Source: an uncultured Erysipelotrichaceae bacterium (GTDB lineage: Bacteria > Bacillota_I > Bacilli_A > RF39 > UBA660). Taken from it: a stretch of 64,000 nucleotides of DNA. The DNA lies in NCBI GenBank assembly GCA_902775285.1, contig CACYLI010000004.1, positions 1-64,000 on the forward strand, in the 5' to 3' direction. Shown here one piece after another: positions 33,749 to 39,953 of the stretch; position 1 is the stretch's first letter, and every line of letters begins with the position of its first letter. The translations under genes were made by a program, and so were the position numbers. A model generated the notes under the pieces. That model made no database searches. It saw only the letters and a list, made by a program, of their open reading frames with translations, and was not told the origin of the DNA.

Positions 33749-35287
33749 ATGGTAGAAGAATATATTAAAAATCTTAATAATTATAGTATTAATGATAAAG
33801 AAAAAGAAATCATTGATAGTTTTTTAAGTGTAATAAAAAAACGTAAAATAGATATATATAATCCAAAAGATAAAGAATATTTTGAAAATATAATTAAAAG
33901 TATTATTGAATGTGAGTTGGGTGAACACACAAATTTAGTAATTAATTTTAATGATATTGATAATTATGTTGGTGAATTTAATTATATAAGAGAATATAAT
34001 AAAGAAAAAAGAAAATATGAAAATACATTATTATCTATATCATTTTCAAATTCATCTATAATTGTTGAATGCTTAAATGATGATATTAAAAGAAGGTTAT
34101 TTGCATTTAAACAAATATTAAAATGTATTTATCATGAATTAGAGCATTATAAACAATTTATGAGAATTACTAGTAATATTAGTGATAGAGATAGTCTTTT
34201 ATTTGCTAAAGATTATATATTTAGTGATGAAGTATTAGATAAAAAAACATCATTAGATACAAGAAAAGTATATCTTATGAATCATGATAATATGGCTATT
34301 GAAAGTGATGCTAATAATAATGCATTTAAAAAACTTATTTGGTATACAGATTTAGATTATGTAAGAAATTTAGATCAAATAAATGTAACTAGTATTGACT
34401 TTTATATAAGTGATTTAATAATTGAAGAAAATAATAAATTTTATAGATATGATAGAGTTGAATATATTAATTCTAATGTAGATGAAATAGTTAAAAATAA
34501 TCCTTATTTAATTCAAAAGTTTCCAATTTTAAACAAAGAATATAATAAAGATGGTAGTAAAAAAGATTTACTTAGTCTAATTATATCTATGTATAGTGAA
34601 ATTAGTTATTTTGACTCACTAGAAATTAATAATAAAGATAAAACAATACTTATTCAAAATATGTTAAATATGTATTATGAATTAATATATAATAGTCTAA
34701 GAATAACAAATGATGAAGATATAAAAAGGCTAATTGATCTAATTGGAAAAGAAAACTATTTAAATTTACTAAATAATATTAAGAATTTATTTAGAAATGA
34801 TAGAATAATTAGATCAAATCTAAGTAAAAGAAAATATATGTTAAAAAATAAACTTGATTCAAAATATAATTATTTAAAAAGGCTTGGAATAAGAGAAAAA
34901 ATAAGTCATTTTGAAAATGGAATAGAAAGAAAATATGACTTAGAAGAATATAAGAAATTTATTGAGTTTACTAATAATGAATCAATTAATAAGATAATGG
35001 AAAGATACTTAATACAAAGAATACCTTCAAGAGGATATTTTATATTAAAAGATGGAAAGAAAATAGATGCTAATACGTTATTTAAAGAAAAAATTATTAA
35101 AGAATTAAAAAGTGATATGTTTTTAAAAGATATTATAGAAGTATTTAAAAAATATGTTAAATCAAGTAGTGAATCAGACTATCAAATAGAATTAGAAAGA
35201 ATAAATTCTATATATCAGAAGAAAATATCATTTATTGAAACACTATATAATAATGCTTTATATGATACAAAAAGTAAAAAAAGTTGA
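33749..35287 (+). CDS. Cytoplasmic HExxH metallopeptidase-like protein (512 aa)
   Basis: 512 aa, unknown family. HELEH (129-133) gives two zinc-binding His and the catalytic Glu, and IESDANN (Glu185) may be the third ligand, as in gluzincins. There is no signal peptide, so it would act inside the cell. The remainder is helical, with a basic C-terminal third. ATG 33749 lies where transcription from TATAAT 33737-33742 should begin, there is no Shine-Dalgarno, and the next in-frame ATG is far downstream, so translation is probably leaderless. Ends in TGA, which is part of the next promoter's -35. Two further HExxH proteins occur at 46005 and 62667. Confidence 0.75.
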   Translation: MVEEYIKNLNNYSINDKEKEIIDSFLSVIKKRKIDIYNPKDKEYFENIIKSIIECELGEHTNLVINFNDIDNYVGEFNYIREYNKEKRKYENTLLSISFSNSSIIVECLNDDIKRRLFAFKQILKCIYHELEHYKQFMRITSNISDRDSLLFAKDYIFSDEVLDKKTSLDTRKVYLMNHDNMAIESDANNNAFKKLIWYTDLDYVRNLDQINVTSIDFYISDLIIEENNKFYRYDRVEYINSNVDEIVKNNPYLIQKFPILNKEYNKDGSKKDLLSLIISMYSEISYFDSLEINNKDKTILIQNMLNMYYELIYNSLRITNDEDIKRLIDLIGKENYLNLLNNIKNLFRNDRIIRSNLSKRKYMLKNKLDSKYNYLKRLGIREKISHFENGIERKYDLEEYKKFIEFTNNESINKIMERYLIQRIPSRGYFILKDGKKIDANTLFKEKIIKELKSDMFLKDIIEVFKKYVKSSSESDYQIELERINSIYQKKISFIETLYNNALYDTKSKKS

Positions 35288-36559: not shown

Positions 36560-37141
36560 ATGAACTATATTATATTAATAATGGGTTTTTTTAATTCTTT
36601 ATTTAAAGAGATAGATATAAATCATAATTATTTAGATAATCAAATTAAAATTAGTGTTGAAAATTTTGAAACTGAATATAATGAATATCAAGATTATTTA
36701 AAAAAAGAATATGAAAAGAAACATACTTTTAATGGAGAAAGTGACGAAATAATTGCTAAAAAAATAAATAAATTTTTAAATTCTACATTAAAAGGAAAAG
36801 GAAAATTTATTACAGAATGTTCAATTAGTGTTGGATTAGATCCATATTTTGCAGCTGCGGTAATGTTACAAGAAACTGGTTGTTATTGGACGTGTAGTAA
36901 GCTTACAAGAAGTTGCTATAATGTTGGTGGTAATAAAGGGAAACCTTCATGTAATGGAGGAAGTTATAGAAAATTTAATTCAATAGAAGAAGGAATGAAA
37001 TTCGCTATAAATAAATTAAATAGTTATTATAAAAAAGGATATAAAACACCTGCTCAAATTAATCCATTTTATGCAACTGATAAAACATGGCATGAAAAAG
37101 TTCAAAGATACTATAATAAACTAAAAAAAGCAAAAGTTTAA
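36560..37141 (+). CDS. Secreted N-acetylglucosaminidase-type peptidoglycan hydrolase
   Basis: 193 aa. A short hydrophobic N-terminus (MNYIILIMGFFNSLF) may act as signal or anchor. The glucosaminidase domain contains GLDPYFAAAVMLQETGC, where the Glu of QETG is the likely catalytic acid. CYNVGGNKGKPSC, FNSIEEGMKFAINKLNSYY and INPFYATDKTW follow, all typical of the LytG/glucosaminidase superfamily. It would trim cell-wall glycan strands. ATG follows AAGGAAGTG. The next gene starts 18 bases after its stop. Confidence 0.85.
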   Translation: MNYIILIMGFFNSLFKEIDINHNYLDNQIKISVENFETEYNEYQDYLKKEYEKKHTFNGESDEIIAKKINKFLNSTLKGKGKFITECSISVGLDPYFAAAVMLQETGCYWTCSKLTRSCYNVGGNKGKPSCNGGSYRKFNSIEEGMKFAINKLNSYYKKGYKTPAQINPFYATDKTWHEKVQRYYNKLKKAKV

Positions 37142-37159
37142 TGAAAGGAGAGAAAACTT

Positions 37160-37795
37160 ATGAATGAACGTATATATCTTCATACTATTAATAATGGTTA
37201 CAATAATTACTATGTTTCTAAAAAACAAAAAGAAGTATTAGAGAGTATATTAAAATCTAGAAAAATATTATCTAAAAGAATGCAAGGTTATAATGAAAAA
37301 AATACAACTATTAATTTTGCTGGATTAGATTATATTTCACTAAGTGACTATGAAAAAAGATTTATAAGTAATAAGGAAGAAGCATATTATAATTGTTATT
37401 ATGGTTATTCAAGACGTGGTATATCATTTAGTTTTCCTCATGATTCATTAGAAGTAATCGAGCCTACCATAATTGGTGTTTGTTCTAAAAGATATAATGA
37501 CTTTTTACTTATGGAAAAATTAGGTTTAGATGAAAACAGATATTCTGATTTACCAGATGAAGTACAAGTTAAAGATAGTATTCCACTTGAGAAAATGAAT
37601 GGAATAATCTTTCCAACTAGAGAATTTATGTGTAGTAAAGTGTTTGCTAAAAAAAATAAAATGATTGTTTTATTAAAGCAAGAATTAGAAGAAATAAAAA
37701 ATATGTTAAGTGAATATAATTACGAGACTAGAATGTATGATATAGATACATTAGAAGAAATAGATAAAATAGATGATTATATATTAAAATTATAA
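37160..37795 (+). CDS. Possible ADP-ribosyltransferase-fold protein
   Basis: 211 aa, ATG after AAAGGAGAG. The order of motifs recalls H-Y-E ADP-ribosyltransferases. IYLHTI (His8) near the N-terminus is followed by a helix with ILKSRKIL, then GLDYISLSDYEKR (about 55-67) and SRRGISFSF, and finally DEVQVKDSIPLEKMNGI (Glu134), which resembles the catalytic-Glu strand of that fold. No signal peptide, no zinc site, no neighbouring obvious immunity gene. If the fold is right, it could modify a protein or nucleic acid; the substrate is unknown. It could equally be an unrelated protein. Confidence 0.45.
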   Translation: MNERIYLHTINNGYNNYYVSKKQKEVLESILKSRKILSKRMQGYNEKNTTINFAGLDYISLSDYEKRFISNKEEAYYNCYYGYSRRGISFSFPHDSLEVIEPTIIGVCSKRYNDFLLMEKLGLDENRYSDLPDEVQVKDSIPLEKMNGIIFPTREFMCSKVFAKKNKMIVLLKQELEEIKNMLSEYNYETRMYDIDTLEEIDKIDDYILKL

Positions 37796-37796
37796 G

Positions 37797-37825
37797 TTGA
37801 CAAAATTTGTTTTTAATATTATAAT
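37797..37825 (+). promoter_or_regulatory. Promoter of the lysS T-box transcript
   Basis: Perfect -35 TTGACA (37797-37802), 17-base spacer, perfect -10 TATAAT (37820-37825). Confidence 0.85.
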
Positions 37826-37831
37826 CGTGTC

Positions 37832-38039
37832 GTAAGCGATGAAAAGAGAAGTAAGTGTTTGCTTTCCTTTATAGAGAGTTAGTGGATGGTGTAAACTAAT
37901 AATAGGTAAATAACTGAAAAAAGTATTCTTAGAGCTTAAACGCAAATCTGCGATAAAGATTTAAAGGTAGAATTATTAGAATCTATAAAGTAAGATGGTA
38001 CAGTGAAATAGTCACGCTTACGTTATAGATTCTTTTTTT
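37832..38039 (+). promoter_or_regulatory. T-box riboswitch, lysine-specific, upstream of lysS
   Basis: The leader contains the stem I segment AGAGAGTTAGTGGATGG (from about 37873) and a likely specifier AAA (Lys) at 37918-37920, aligned with ATC in the ileS leader. The antiterminator bulge region is GATGGTACAGTG (37994-38005), where the usual ACCG is ACAG. A strong terminator pairs AGAATCTATAA (37978-37988) with TTATAGATTCT (38023-38033) before a T-run. Uncharged tRNA-Lys should induce lysS. Confidence 0.88.
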
Positions 38040-38054
38040 AATAAGGAGGGAAAA

Positions 38055-39953
38055 ATGAAAGAAAATTTAAGTGAACAAGAAATTGTAAGAAGGGAAAAAT
38101 TAAAAGAAATTAGTAAATTTTGTAATCCATATCCAGATAAATATGATAGAACTCATACATTAAAAGAAGCAAAAACTTTAAATGATGGAGAAAGTGAAGT
38201 TAGAATTGCTGGAAGAATAGTATTCATGAGAAAAATGGGTAAACTATCTTTTGTAAAAATTCGCGATATAGAAAGTGATATGCAATTAGAAGTAAAGATT
38301 GATGAAATTGGAGAAGAAAACTATGACTTCTTTAAACGTCAAATAGATACTGGAGATTTTGTAGGAGCAGAAGGTGAAATATTTACTACTGGGACAGGAG
38401 AAAAAACATTAAGAGTAAAAGAACTTACTTTTTTAGGTAAAGCTCTTCGTCCACTTCCAGAAAAATTTCATGGTTTAACTGATATTGAAGAAAAATATAG
38501 ACAAAGATATGTTGATTTAATTATGAATGAAGAATCTAGACGTATATTTCTTGGAAGAAGTAAATTATATGCATTTATTCATTCTTATTTAGGAAAAAAT
38601 GGATTTTTAGAAGTAGAAACTCCAATTTTACAAAATGCAGTTAGTGGAGCTAGTGCTAAACCATTTTATACTCATCATAATGCACTTGATATGGATTGTA
38701 ATTTAAGAATTGCACCTGAAACATATTTAAAGCAATGTATTTCAGGTGGATTTGATAGAGTTTATGAATTAGCTAAATGTTTTAGAAATGAAGGAATGGA
38801 TACTGAACATTTACAAGAGTTTACTCAAGTTGAATGGTATGTTTCTTATTGGAATTTTGAAGATACAATTACATTTTATAAAAAATTTATGCAAGAATTA
38901 TTAACTGAAATTGTTGGTACTACTAAAATAGAATATCAGGGAAATACTTTAGATTTTGGTAAAGATAAATGGGTTAGAATTAATTATTGTGAGGAAATGG
39001 AAAAGCTACTTGGATTTGATTTCTTAAGTATAGAAGACCCAGAAGAATTAAGAAACAAAATTGTTGAAACAGGACTATATAATTTTGAAGATTTAGTTGA
39101 TTATCATTCAATTAGTCAACTTATAGATTTTGTATATAAAAGACAAATAAGAAGTAAAATAATAGAACCAACTATAATATATAATTATCCTGCTGTTATG
39201 ATGCCTTTAACTAGAAGAAATGATGATGATAATAGAAGAGTTGATATGTTCCAAGTAGTGGCATGTGGAACAGAACTTTGCAAAGCATATTCAGAACTTG
39301 TTGATCCTCAAATTCAAAGACAAGCTTTTGTAGATCAATTAAAAGCAAAAGAACAAGGAGATGATGAAACTATGGATTTAGATGAAAGTTTCTTATCTTC
39401 TATGGAAATGGGTATGCCTCCAATTAGTGGGTTAGGTTTTGGAATTGATAGATTAATGATGCTATTATTTGATGCTCCATCTATTAGAGATGTTGTATTA
39501 TTCCCACAAATGAAAGATGTAAATAATAGTAATAAAAAAGTAATGAGCGTAAATAATAATAAAGAAACAAAAATAGTTGATTTTAGTAATGTAGTAATAG
39601 AACCTTTATTTGAAGATATGGTTGATTTTGAAACATTCAGTAAAAGTGATTTTAGAGTTGTAAAAGTTAAAGATTGTGTTGCTGTTGAAAAGAGTAAAAA
39701 ATTACTTATGTTTACATTAGATGATGGAACAAATAACGATAGAACTATATTAAGTGGAATACATGCTTACTATGAACCTGAAGAATTAATAGGTAAAACA
39801 TGTGTAGCTATACTAAATCTACCTCCAAGAACAATGATGGGTATAGATTCATGTGGAATGCTTATATCTGCAGTACATACTCAGAATAATGAAGAAAAAT
39901 TAAATCTACTTATGCTAGATGATAGTATTCCAGCTGGAAGTAAATTATATTAA
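38055..39953 (+). CDS. lysS: Class II lysyl-tRNA synthetase fused to a Trbp111/EMAPII tRNA-binding domain
   Basis: 632 aa; LysRS is normally about 500. N-terminal OB anticodon-binding domain (about 45-140, RIAGRIVFMRKMGKLSFVKI), then the class II core with motif 2 (ELAKCFRNEGMD) and motif 3 (GLGFGIDRLMMLLF). After about residue 515 comes an extra domain. FSKSDFRVVKVKDCVAVEKS, SGIHAYYEPEELIGK and LPPRTMMGIDSCGMLISA match the Trbp111/EMAPII-type module found at the C-terminus of many MetRS. It probably increases tRNA affinity. ATG follows AAGGAGGG. Controlled by the upstream T-box. Confidence 0.95.
   Translation: MKENLSEQEIVRREKLKEISKFCNPYPDKYDRTHTLKEAKTLNDGESEVRIAGRIVFMRKMGKLSFVKIRDIESDMQLEVKIDEIGEENYDFFKRQIDTGDFVGAEGEIFTTGTGEKTLRVKELTFLGKALRPLPEKFHGLTDIEEKYRQRYVDLIMNEESRRIFLGRSKLYAFIHSYLGKNGFLEVETPILQNAVSGASAKPFYTHHNALDMDCNLRIAPETYLKQCISGGFDRVYELAKCFRNEGMDTEHLQEFTQVEWYVSYWNFEDTITFYKKFMQELLTEIVGTTKIEYQGNTLDFGKDKWVRINYCEEMEKLLGFDFLSIEDPEELRNKIVETGLYNFEDLVDYHSISQLIDFVYKRQIRSKIIEPTIIYNYPAVMMPLTRRNDDDNRRVDMFQVVACGTELCKAYSELVDPQIQRQAFVDQLKAKEQGDDETMDLDESFLSSMEMGMPPISGLGFGIDRLMMLLFDAPSIRDVVLFPQMKDVNNSNKKVMSVNNNKETKIVDFSNVVIEPLFEDMVDFETFSKSDFRVVKVKDCVAVEKSKKLLMFTLDDGTNNDRTILSGIHAYYEPEELIGKTCVAILNLPPRTMMGIDSCGMLISAVHTQNNEEKLNLLMLDDSIPAGSKLY

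Follow-up and report, generated by a model that had tools for sequence, protein, structure and literature searches.

Few endogenous functions of ADP-ribosyltransferases (ARTs) are known in bacteria. The NatT-type NADases with a RES domain are members of the ART superfamily. According to the available part of PMC7955679, strand 1 of ARTs carries motif I, strand 2 carries motif II, and the front edge of strand 5 carries motif III, which is usually a Glu; the same text counts DUF2441 among the members of the Pfam ART clan. In DarT1, the place of the motif-II tyrosine of DarT2 and PARPs is taken by a serine that is conserved yet dispensable, as stated in the accessible text of PMC11543638. As for NAD metabolism, excerpts of PMC3680494 and PMC11535050 report that NrtR responds to ADP-ribose, which signals that NAD is being consumed, and that PncC recycles NMN.

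In this study, I analyzed a stretch of 64,000 nucleotides, hereafter called the window, which lies in contig C4 of a 1.44-Mb, 28-contig genome (G000) of an uncultured Erysipelotrichaceae bacterium. The estimated completeness of this genome is 83%. The window has a gene for a small protein (Table 1) that is very probably, to judge from its modelled fold and conserved residues, an ART of the intracellular, NAD-consuming type. I judge the ART-like clade to which it belongs to be a new, unnamed branch of the known ART superfamily in gut Bacilli.

Table 1. Features of the window and of loci with related ART-like genes
Feature	Location	Strand	Remarks
ART-like protein gene, 211 aa, ATG start	window 37160..37795	+	ORF list; putative active-site residues His8, Tyr58/Ser60/Ser62 region, Glu134
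Glucosaminidase-family wall hydrolase, 193 aa, hydrophobic N-terminus	window 36560..37141	+	Pfam PF01832, E 1.1e-8
aaaggaga, ribosome-site-like, within the 18-base intergenic gap	window 37144..37151	+	read from sequence
T-box leader of the downstream gene	window 37830..38022	+	69.3 bits, family gathering score 93; E 3.4e-15 (351-base search)
Downstream gene, presumably lysyl-tRNA synthetase-like	window 38055..39953	+	product recognised from sequence
HD domain, then ART-like domain	L092:1228-2790		HD below cut-off
HD domain, then ART-like domain	L091:1831-3711		by similarity to L092
HD domain, then ART-like domain	L096:103-1713		HD over cut-off
ART-like domain, then C-terminal DUF2441	L089:1704-3056		PF10386, E 2.2e-19
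ART-like domain, then C-terminal DUF2441	L093:1681-3048		by similarity
NAD operon with ART-like gene beside PncC	L139:3632-8735		
NAD operon with ART-like gene beside PncC	L140:5172-10792		
NAD operon with ART-like gene beside PncC	L141:7519-8576		
NAD operon, broken ART copy beside PncC	L176:7146-9780		

Putative active-site residues and predicted fold

A preliminary description of the gene had pointed to LHT (His8), GLDYISLSDYEKR, and DEVQVKDSIP (Glu134) in its product as having the order and spacing of an H-Y-E enzyme. All of them are found in the translated ORF. Are they more than a coincidence? In a chosen 30-row alignment, with members as little as 21% identical to the window protein, no column is invariant other than those of His8, Ser60, and Glu134. 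I also prepared an unselected alignment of all matches to a 19-member profile among the loci examined (83 domains, 82 distinct); this profile was built from part of the aligned sequences, and the rows are related by descent. Residue 8 is His in all 62 distinct domains covering the position, and residue 134 is Glu in all 74. Residue 60 is Ser in 62 of 69 distinct domains (six have Cys and one Asn), so that conservation within the middle motif peaks at Ser60, ahead of Tyr58 (Tyr in 57 of the 70 non-gap domains). Fifty of the 54 domains spanning all three positions have H-S-E, and the other four have H-C-E. L049, which lies outside the 30-row set, has Pro at position 8 and Cys at position 60, and looks like a decayed copy. 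Since the motifs are conserved across relatives in both the 30-row and the 82-domain alignments, a chance motif or a wrong reading frame was excluded. The H and the E of the earlier label are supported, while for its Y there are three candidates, as the middle catalytic residue may be Tyr58, Ser60, or Ser62.

The AlphaFold2 model of the window protein, calculated from an alignment with 17 relatives (27-60% identity), has a pLDDT of 90.2 and a pTM of 0.88. In this model, His8 lies within a strand (residues 5-9), as motif I does in strand 1, and Glu134 is the first residue of another strand (134-138), as motif III is at the front edge of its strand. Tyr58, Ser60, and Ser62 alternate along the strand from 58 to 63. 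A Foldseek search of the PDB gave ARTs in all of the best ten rows (Thermus and Mycobacterium DarT, Tpt1, DarT1, CteC, and DarTG) and mostly noise below. The best row is DarT 7omw (E 3.3e-3, probability 0.99); the E-values are modest, none being 0.001 or lower, and the TM scores are about 0.4. When the model was compared using VIA, the Z values were 8.1 (136 residues, rmsd 3.9) and 8.0 for DarT, Tpt1 having 7.5 (104 residues, rmsd 3.2), DarT1 6.5, and CteC about 6.0. The identity between the window protein and DarT in these comparisons is 9-17%. Because a Z of about 8 is in the range that the tool warns about and may reflect a common arrangement, a second member was folded separately. The model of this protein (L053, 26% identical to the window protein) has a pLDDT of 82.7 and a pTM of 0.83, and ARTs again fill the list, with Z values of 8.6 for DarT, 8.5 for Tpt1, 7.3 for DarT1, and 7.0 for CteC. 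The list includes two structural-genomics entries, 2o0q and 1wfx, whose titles do not name an ART and which I take to be ART-fold proteins. In the BFVD collection of viral folds, two rows have an E of 0.001 or lower, and both are uncharacterised viral proteins.

These predictions support a split beta-sheet ART fold for the window protein. The weight of this assignment lies in the uniform ART matches and the conserved residues, not in the size of the Foldseek E-values or of Z. Structure prediction and a fold search had been proposed beforehand as the check, with a fold lacking the split beta-sheet NAD cleft as the outcome that would speak against an ART. Both separately folded members match ARTs first in these computed models, which speaks against such an outcome.

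Distribution of the family

The window protein has no above-chance family in Pfam, NCBIfam, or PADLOC, and none of the PADLOC defence models match it. In PHROGs, its best match (0.076) is to a family without known function. The immunity protein Imm70 was dropped as an identity, since its Pfam E of 0.095 falls short of the cut-off. Nothing meaningful was found among solved structures by sequence, with either the single protein or the profile as the query.

Nine of the 18 genomes of the genus have the ART gene according to a single-sequence search. The same kind of search, run on 291 sampled genomes of the bacterial family, gave matches in 24 at E <= 0.01, the weakest of which are doubtful, and the profile of 19 members gave matches in 46 of the 291 at E <= 0.001. 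A search of genome contigs yielded 20 loci, and the relatives that carry a name come from metagenome assemblies under labels such as Bacilli, Tenericutes, Erysipelotrichaceae, and Clostridia. Besides the fusions listed in Table 1, an ART domain forms the end of proteins about 1,050 residues long in L088 and L090. Some genomes have multiple matches: G237 has several neighbouring copies on two small contigs (the L094 and L095 clusters) and a total of eight matches, and G679 has three matches on one contig (the L174 cluster). In a literature search that left subscription papers, including older ART surveys, mostly outside its coverage, no description of this family was found. The present analysis adds an unannotated ART branch that is diversifying in uncultured gut Bacilli and in which the His and the Glu are constant and the Ser is conserved.

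Proposed reaction and its alternatives

On the basis of the modelled fold and the residue pattern, I consider it likely that the window protein performs NAD-dependent ART chemistry. The fold, the strand positions, and the conservation used for this proposal were computed, and from them I infer how NAD may be bound and cleaved. The split beta-sheet would hold NAD+ in its cleft, where His8 of strand 1 would grip the NAD ribose and the nicotinamide amide, and Tyr58, Ser60, or Ser62 of the middle strand would line the nicotinamide pocket. Glu134 would stabilise the oxocarbenium ion as nicotinamide departs, and the ADP-ribose would then move to an acceptor within the cell that makes the enzyme. Nucleic acid is the leading, if tentative, guess for this acceptor, because the closest folds are those of DarT, which acts on DNA, and Tpt1/KptA, which acts on the 2'-phosphate of RNA.

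One subfamily (L016, L017, L025, and L026; 23-29% identical to the window protein) sits among NAD genes. A model built from these four sequences alone recovers the window protein with an E of 9.3e-17. The gene order is Prs, radical SAM, NadD, ART, PncC, NrtR, and NadK in G071, and NadE (farther off), Prs, NadD, ART, PncC, one unknown gene, NrtR, and NadK in G084. G213 has PncC-ART, while G067 has a broken ART copy between NadD and PncC, followed by NrtR; the completeness of the Prs, NadD, PncC, NrtR, and NadK set therefore varies among the four operons. Pfam recognised CinA/PncC, a cytidylyltransferase-like fold, NUDIX with the NrtR winged helix, and a Prs-like domain, and the names NadD, NadK, and NadE were given from recognised sequence motifs and similarity to those genes. 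A NUDIX gene adjoins the ART gene in G107, the match in L187 is no more than a weak NrtR/NUDIX-like one, and the surroundings of the ART gene in G653 yielded no NAD gene. Among the 68 loci examined, a set that does not contain the window and in which several loci are overlapping or short, the NAD-gene context was found in only four (L139, L140, L141, and L176), all of one subfamily, and not outside it. The literature covered by the search described above, in which subscription papers were mostly missing, has no ART in a NadD-PncC-NrtR operon. The operons suggest a regulatory role for this branch. They also support NAD chemistry for the clade, which by extension may apply to the window gene, and offer a concrete, testable connection of an ART to NAD homeostasis in bacteria.

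The same operons argue for a rival reading, namely an NAD hydrolase or sensor. Water or phosphate would be the main acceptor, as phosphate is for the RES toxin NatT, and the enzyme would tune the NAD pool or make an ADP-ribose signal, which in the NAD-operon subfamily would feed back on NrtR. The available parts of PMC11535050 and PMC3680494 are in line with this, since they report that ADP-ribose is sensed by NrtR and that NatT cleaves NAD and induces the NrtR regulon. However, the operon placement is limited to four loci of one subfamily, and the window protein has neither a RES match nor an NAD gene among its identified neighbours. I regard this reading as unlikely for the window protein. 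A wider picture, also speculative and rather improbable as a whole, is that gut Bacilli have a large ART clade that has gone unrecognised. One branch of it, placed between nadD and pncC in an NrtR-type operon, would be an NAD-consuming regulator whose product reports NAD turnover, while the others, including the window gene, would have been recruited to other targets in the cell and joined to HD domains and to second ART domains. If this is true, there would be an ART with NAD homeostasis as its normal job.

Does the neighbourhood of the window gene point to a target? The ART ORF starts 18 bases past the stop codon of the glucosaminidase ORF, as had been noted for a wall hydrolase, and both the ORF coordinates and the Pfam Glucosaminidase match confirm this. 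In the genus, the ART gene lies directly downstream of the glucosaminidase gene in all nine genomes that carry it. The glucosaminidase gene itself is present in 16 of the 18 genomes, seven of which lack the ART gene, and in five of these seven (G015, G010, G006, G013, and G003) an aminoacyl-tRNA-synthetase match follows it. Because the glucosaminidase gene often runs straight to the tRNA synthetase gene when the ART gene is absent, the latter is considered an optional insert. On the glucosaminidase tree (16 rows), the presence of the ART gene needs at least four changes, and 92 of 500 label shuffles are equally low; the clustering is little better than that of shuffled labels. In all 36 genome pairs, the ART proteins resemble each other less than the glucosaminidases do (mean identity, 44.5% vs 64.6%). 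The ART gene has the behaviour of an optional chromosomal gene that changes fast, not that of a toxin with an antitoxin next to it. A functional pairing with the glucosaminidase was rejected as a clue to what the ART protein does, given the seven of 16 genomes without an ART gene and the weak tree clustering. In addition, the glucosaminidases have hydrophobic N-termini and the ART protein has no such segment. Because only the glucosaminidase has this feature, the two proteins are probably on opposite sides of the membrane, the ART in the cytosol.

Outside the genus, the neighbours differ: the ART gene is near a cysS-type gene in L039, L043, and L046 and comes directly after a tyrS gene in L050 and L051, and further neighbours are an HD-domain gene, an adenosine deaminase gene, and others. 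Therefore, the "glucosaminidase operon" of the preliminary description holds as an adjacency within one genus, and the link says little about function. Three side observations were made here. ART-like genes occur near different aminoacyl-tRNA synthetase genes in unrelated contexts (cysS, L043:6001-9252; tyrS, L050:4281-6121; lysS, window 37160-39953). The T-box leader, which begins 35 bases after the end of the ART gene, is under the Rfam gathering score and is overlooked by a default scan. Window 33749-35287 encodes an unannotated 512-residue protein with a YHELEHY (HExxH) motif and no above-chance Pfam match, possibly a zinc peptidase.

A mono-ADP-ribosyltransferase that regulates a protein of its own cell would agree with the next best folds, which include CteC and further ARTs that modify proteins. 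Their Z values are, however, below those of the nucleic-acid ARTs, and the neighbourhoods contain no consistently linked target candidate, and I find this reading doubtful.

Another reading considered was a DarT1-like toxin or anti-phage enzyme acting on nucleic acid, with an unlinked NADAR or macrodomain hydrolase erasing its mark. DarT is the closest fold, and DarT1 has a serine at motif II and a NADAR partner (accessible part of PMC11543638). An annotated macrodomain gene adjoins DarT in four of six plasmid stretches examined, whereas neither a macrodomain nor a NADAR gene is beside the window ART gene, whose neighbours are the glucosaminidase and lysS-like genes. G000 has no Macro match, and its one NADAR is on contig C10, away from the ART gene. 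Across the 18 genomes of the genus, Macro is found in eight, NADAR in two (G000 being one), and ADP-ribosylglycohydrolase in 11. Macro or NADAR is present in eight of nine genomes with the ART gene and in two of nine without it (Fisher 0.015, in a post hoc test that ignores the kinship of the genomes). This co-occurrence is suggestive only, as it was chosen after the fact and vanishes when ADP-ribosylglycohydrolases are counted too (9/9 vs 7/9). No tblastn match to the window protein was found in phage and plasmid collections, and none of 19 candidate stretches from viral contigs were confirmed as relatives; phage or plasmid cargo was ruled out on these grounds. With no hydrolase adjoining the gene and the window protein below the Pfam DarT cut-off, I consider the toxin reading quite improbable. 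Lastly, a non-catalytic ART fold serving as a binding scaffold, for which the available text of PMC7955679 offers precedents in ART-fold families that have lost the triad, is very improbable, as His and Glu are retained in every covering domain.

Comparison with known systems

The preferred reading, an NAD-dependent ART with nucleic acid as the tentative acceptor, can be set against four described groups. The NatT-type RES NADases would be alike in that NAD consumption is tied to NrtR-controlled salvage (PMC11535050, in the part available), an analogy drawn here through the NAD-operon subfamily. They differ in that the window protein has no RES sequence match and the operon link is a feature of that subfamily, not of the window gene. 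DUF2441 is fused to a family member (L089), but it is a separate domain in the same chain and the window protein does not match it.

Tpt1/KptA shares the ART fold, with Z values of 7.5 and 8.5 over 103-104 residues for the two models. The alignment is limited to the ART part, and the window protein has no Pfam PF01885 match. Human Tpt1 has a triad listed as H-H-V (PMC7955679, available part), whereas the present clade keeps Glu throughout.

From DarT1 and DarT2 the window protein differs in that its gene has no macrodomain or NADAR gene next door and that it has no match over the Pfam cut-off for DarT (PF14487). Residues R52 and D54 of DarT1 have no clear alignable counterpart in the window protein. 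On the other hand, weak Pfam DarT matches occur in three of 30 relatives (best E, 0.0089), and in an hhalign comparison Glu134 falls on the Glu that is invariant in a DarT alignment (E 0.0031; probability 10%, a local match to the C-terminal motif only). A His in strand 1, as in four of six DarTs aligned, and a putative catalytic Glu opening a similar strand are likely shared features, Ser60 may correspond to the motif-II serine of DarT1 (accessible part of PMC11543638), and DarT is the best fold match for both models.
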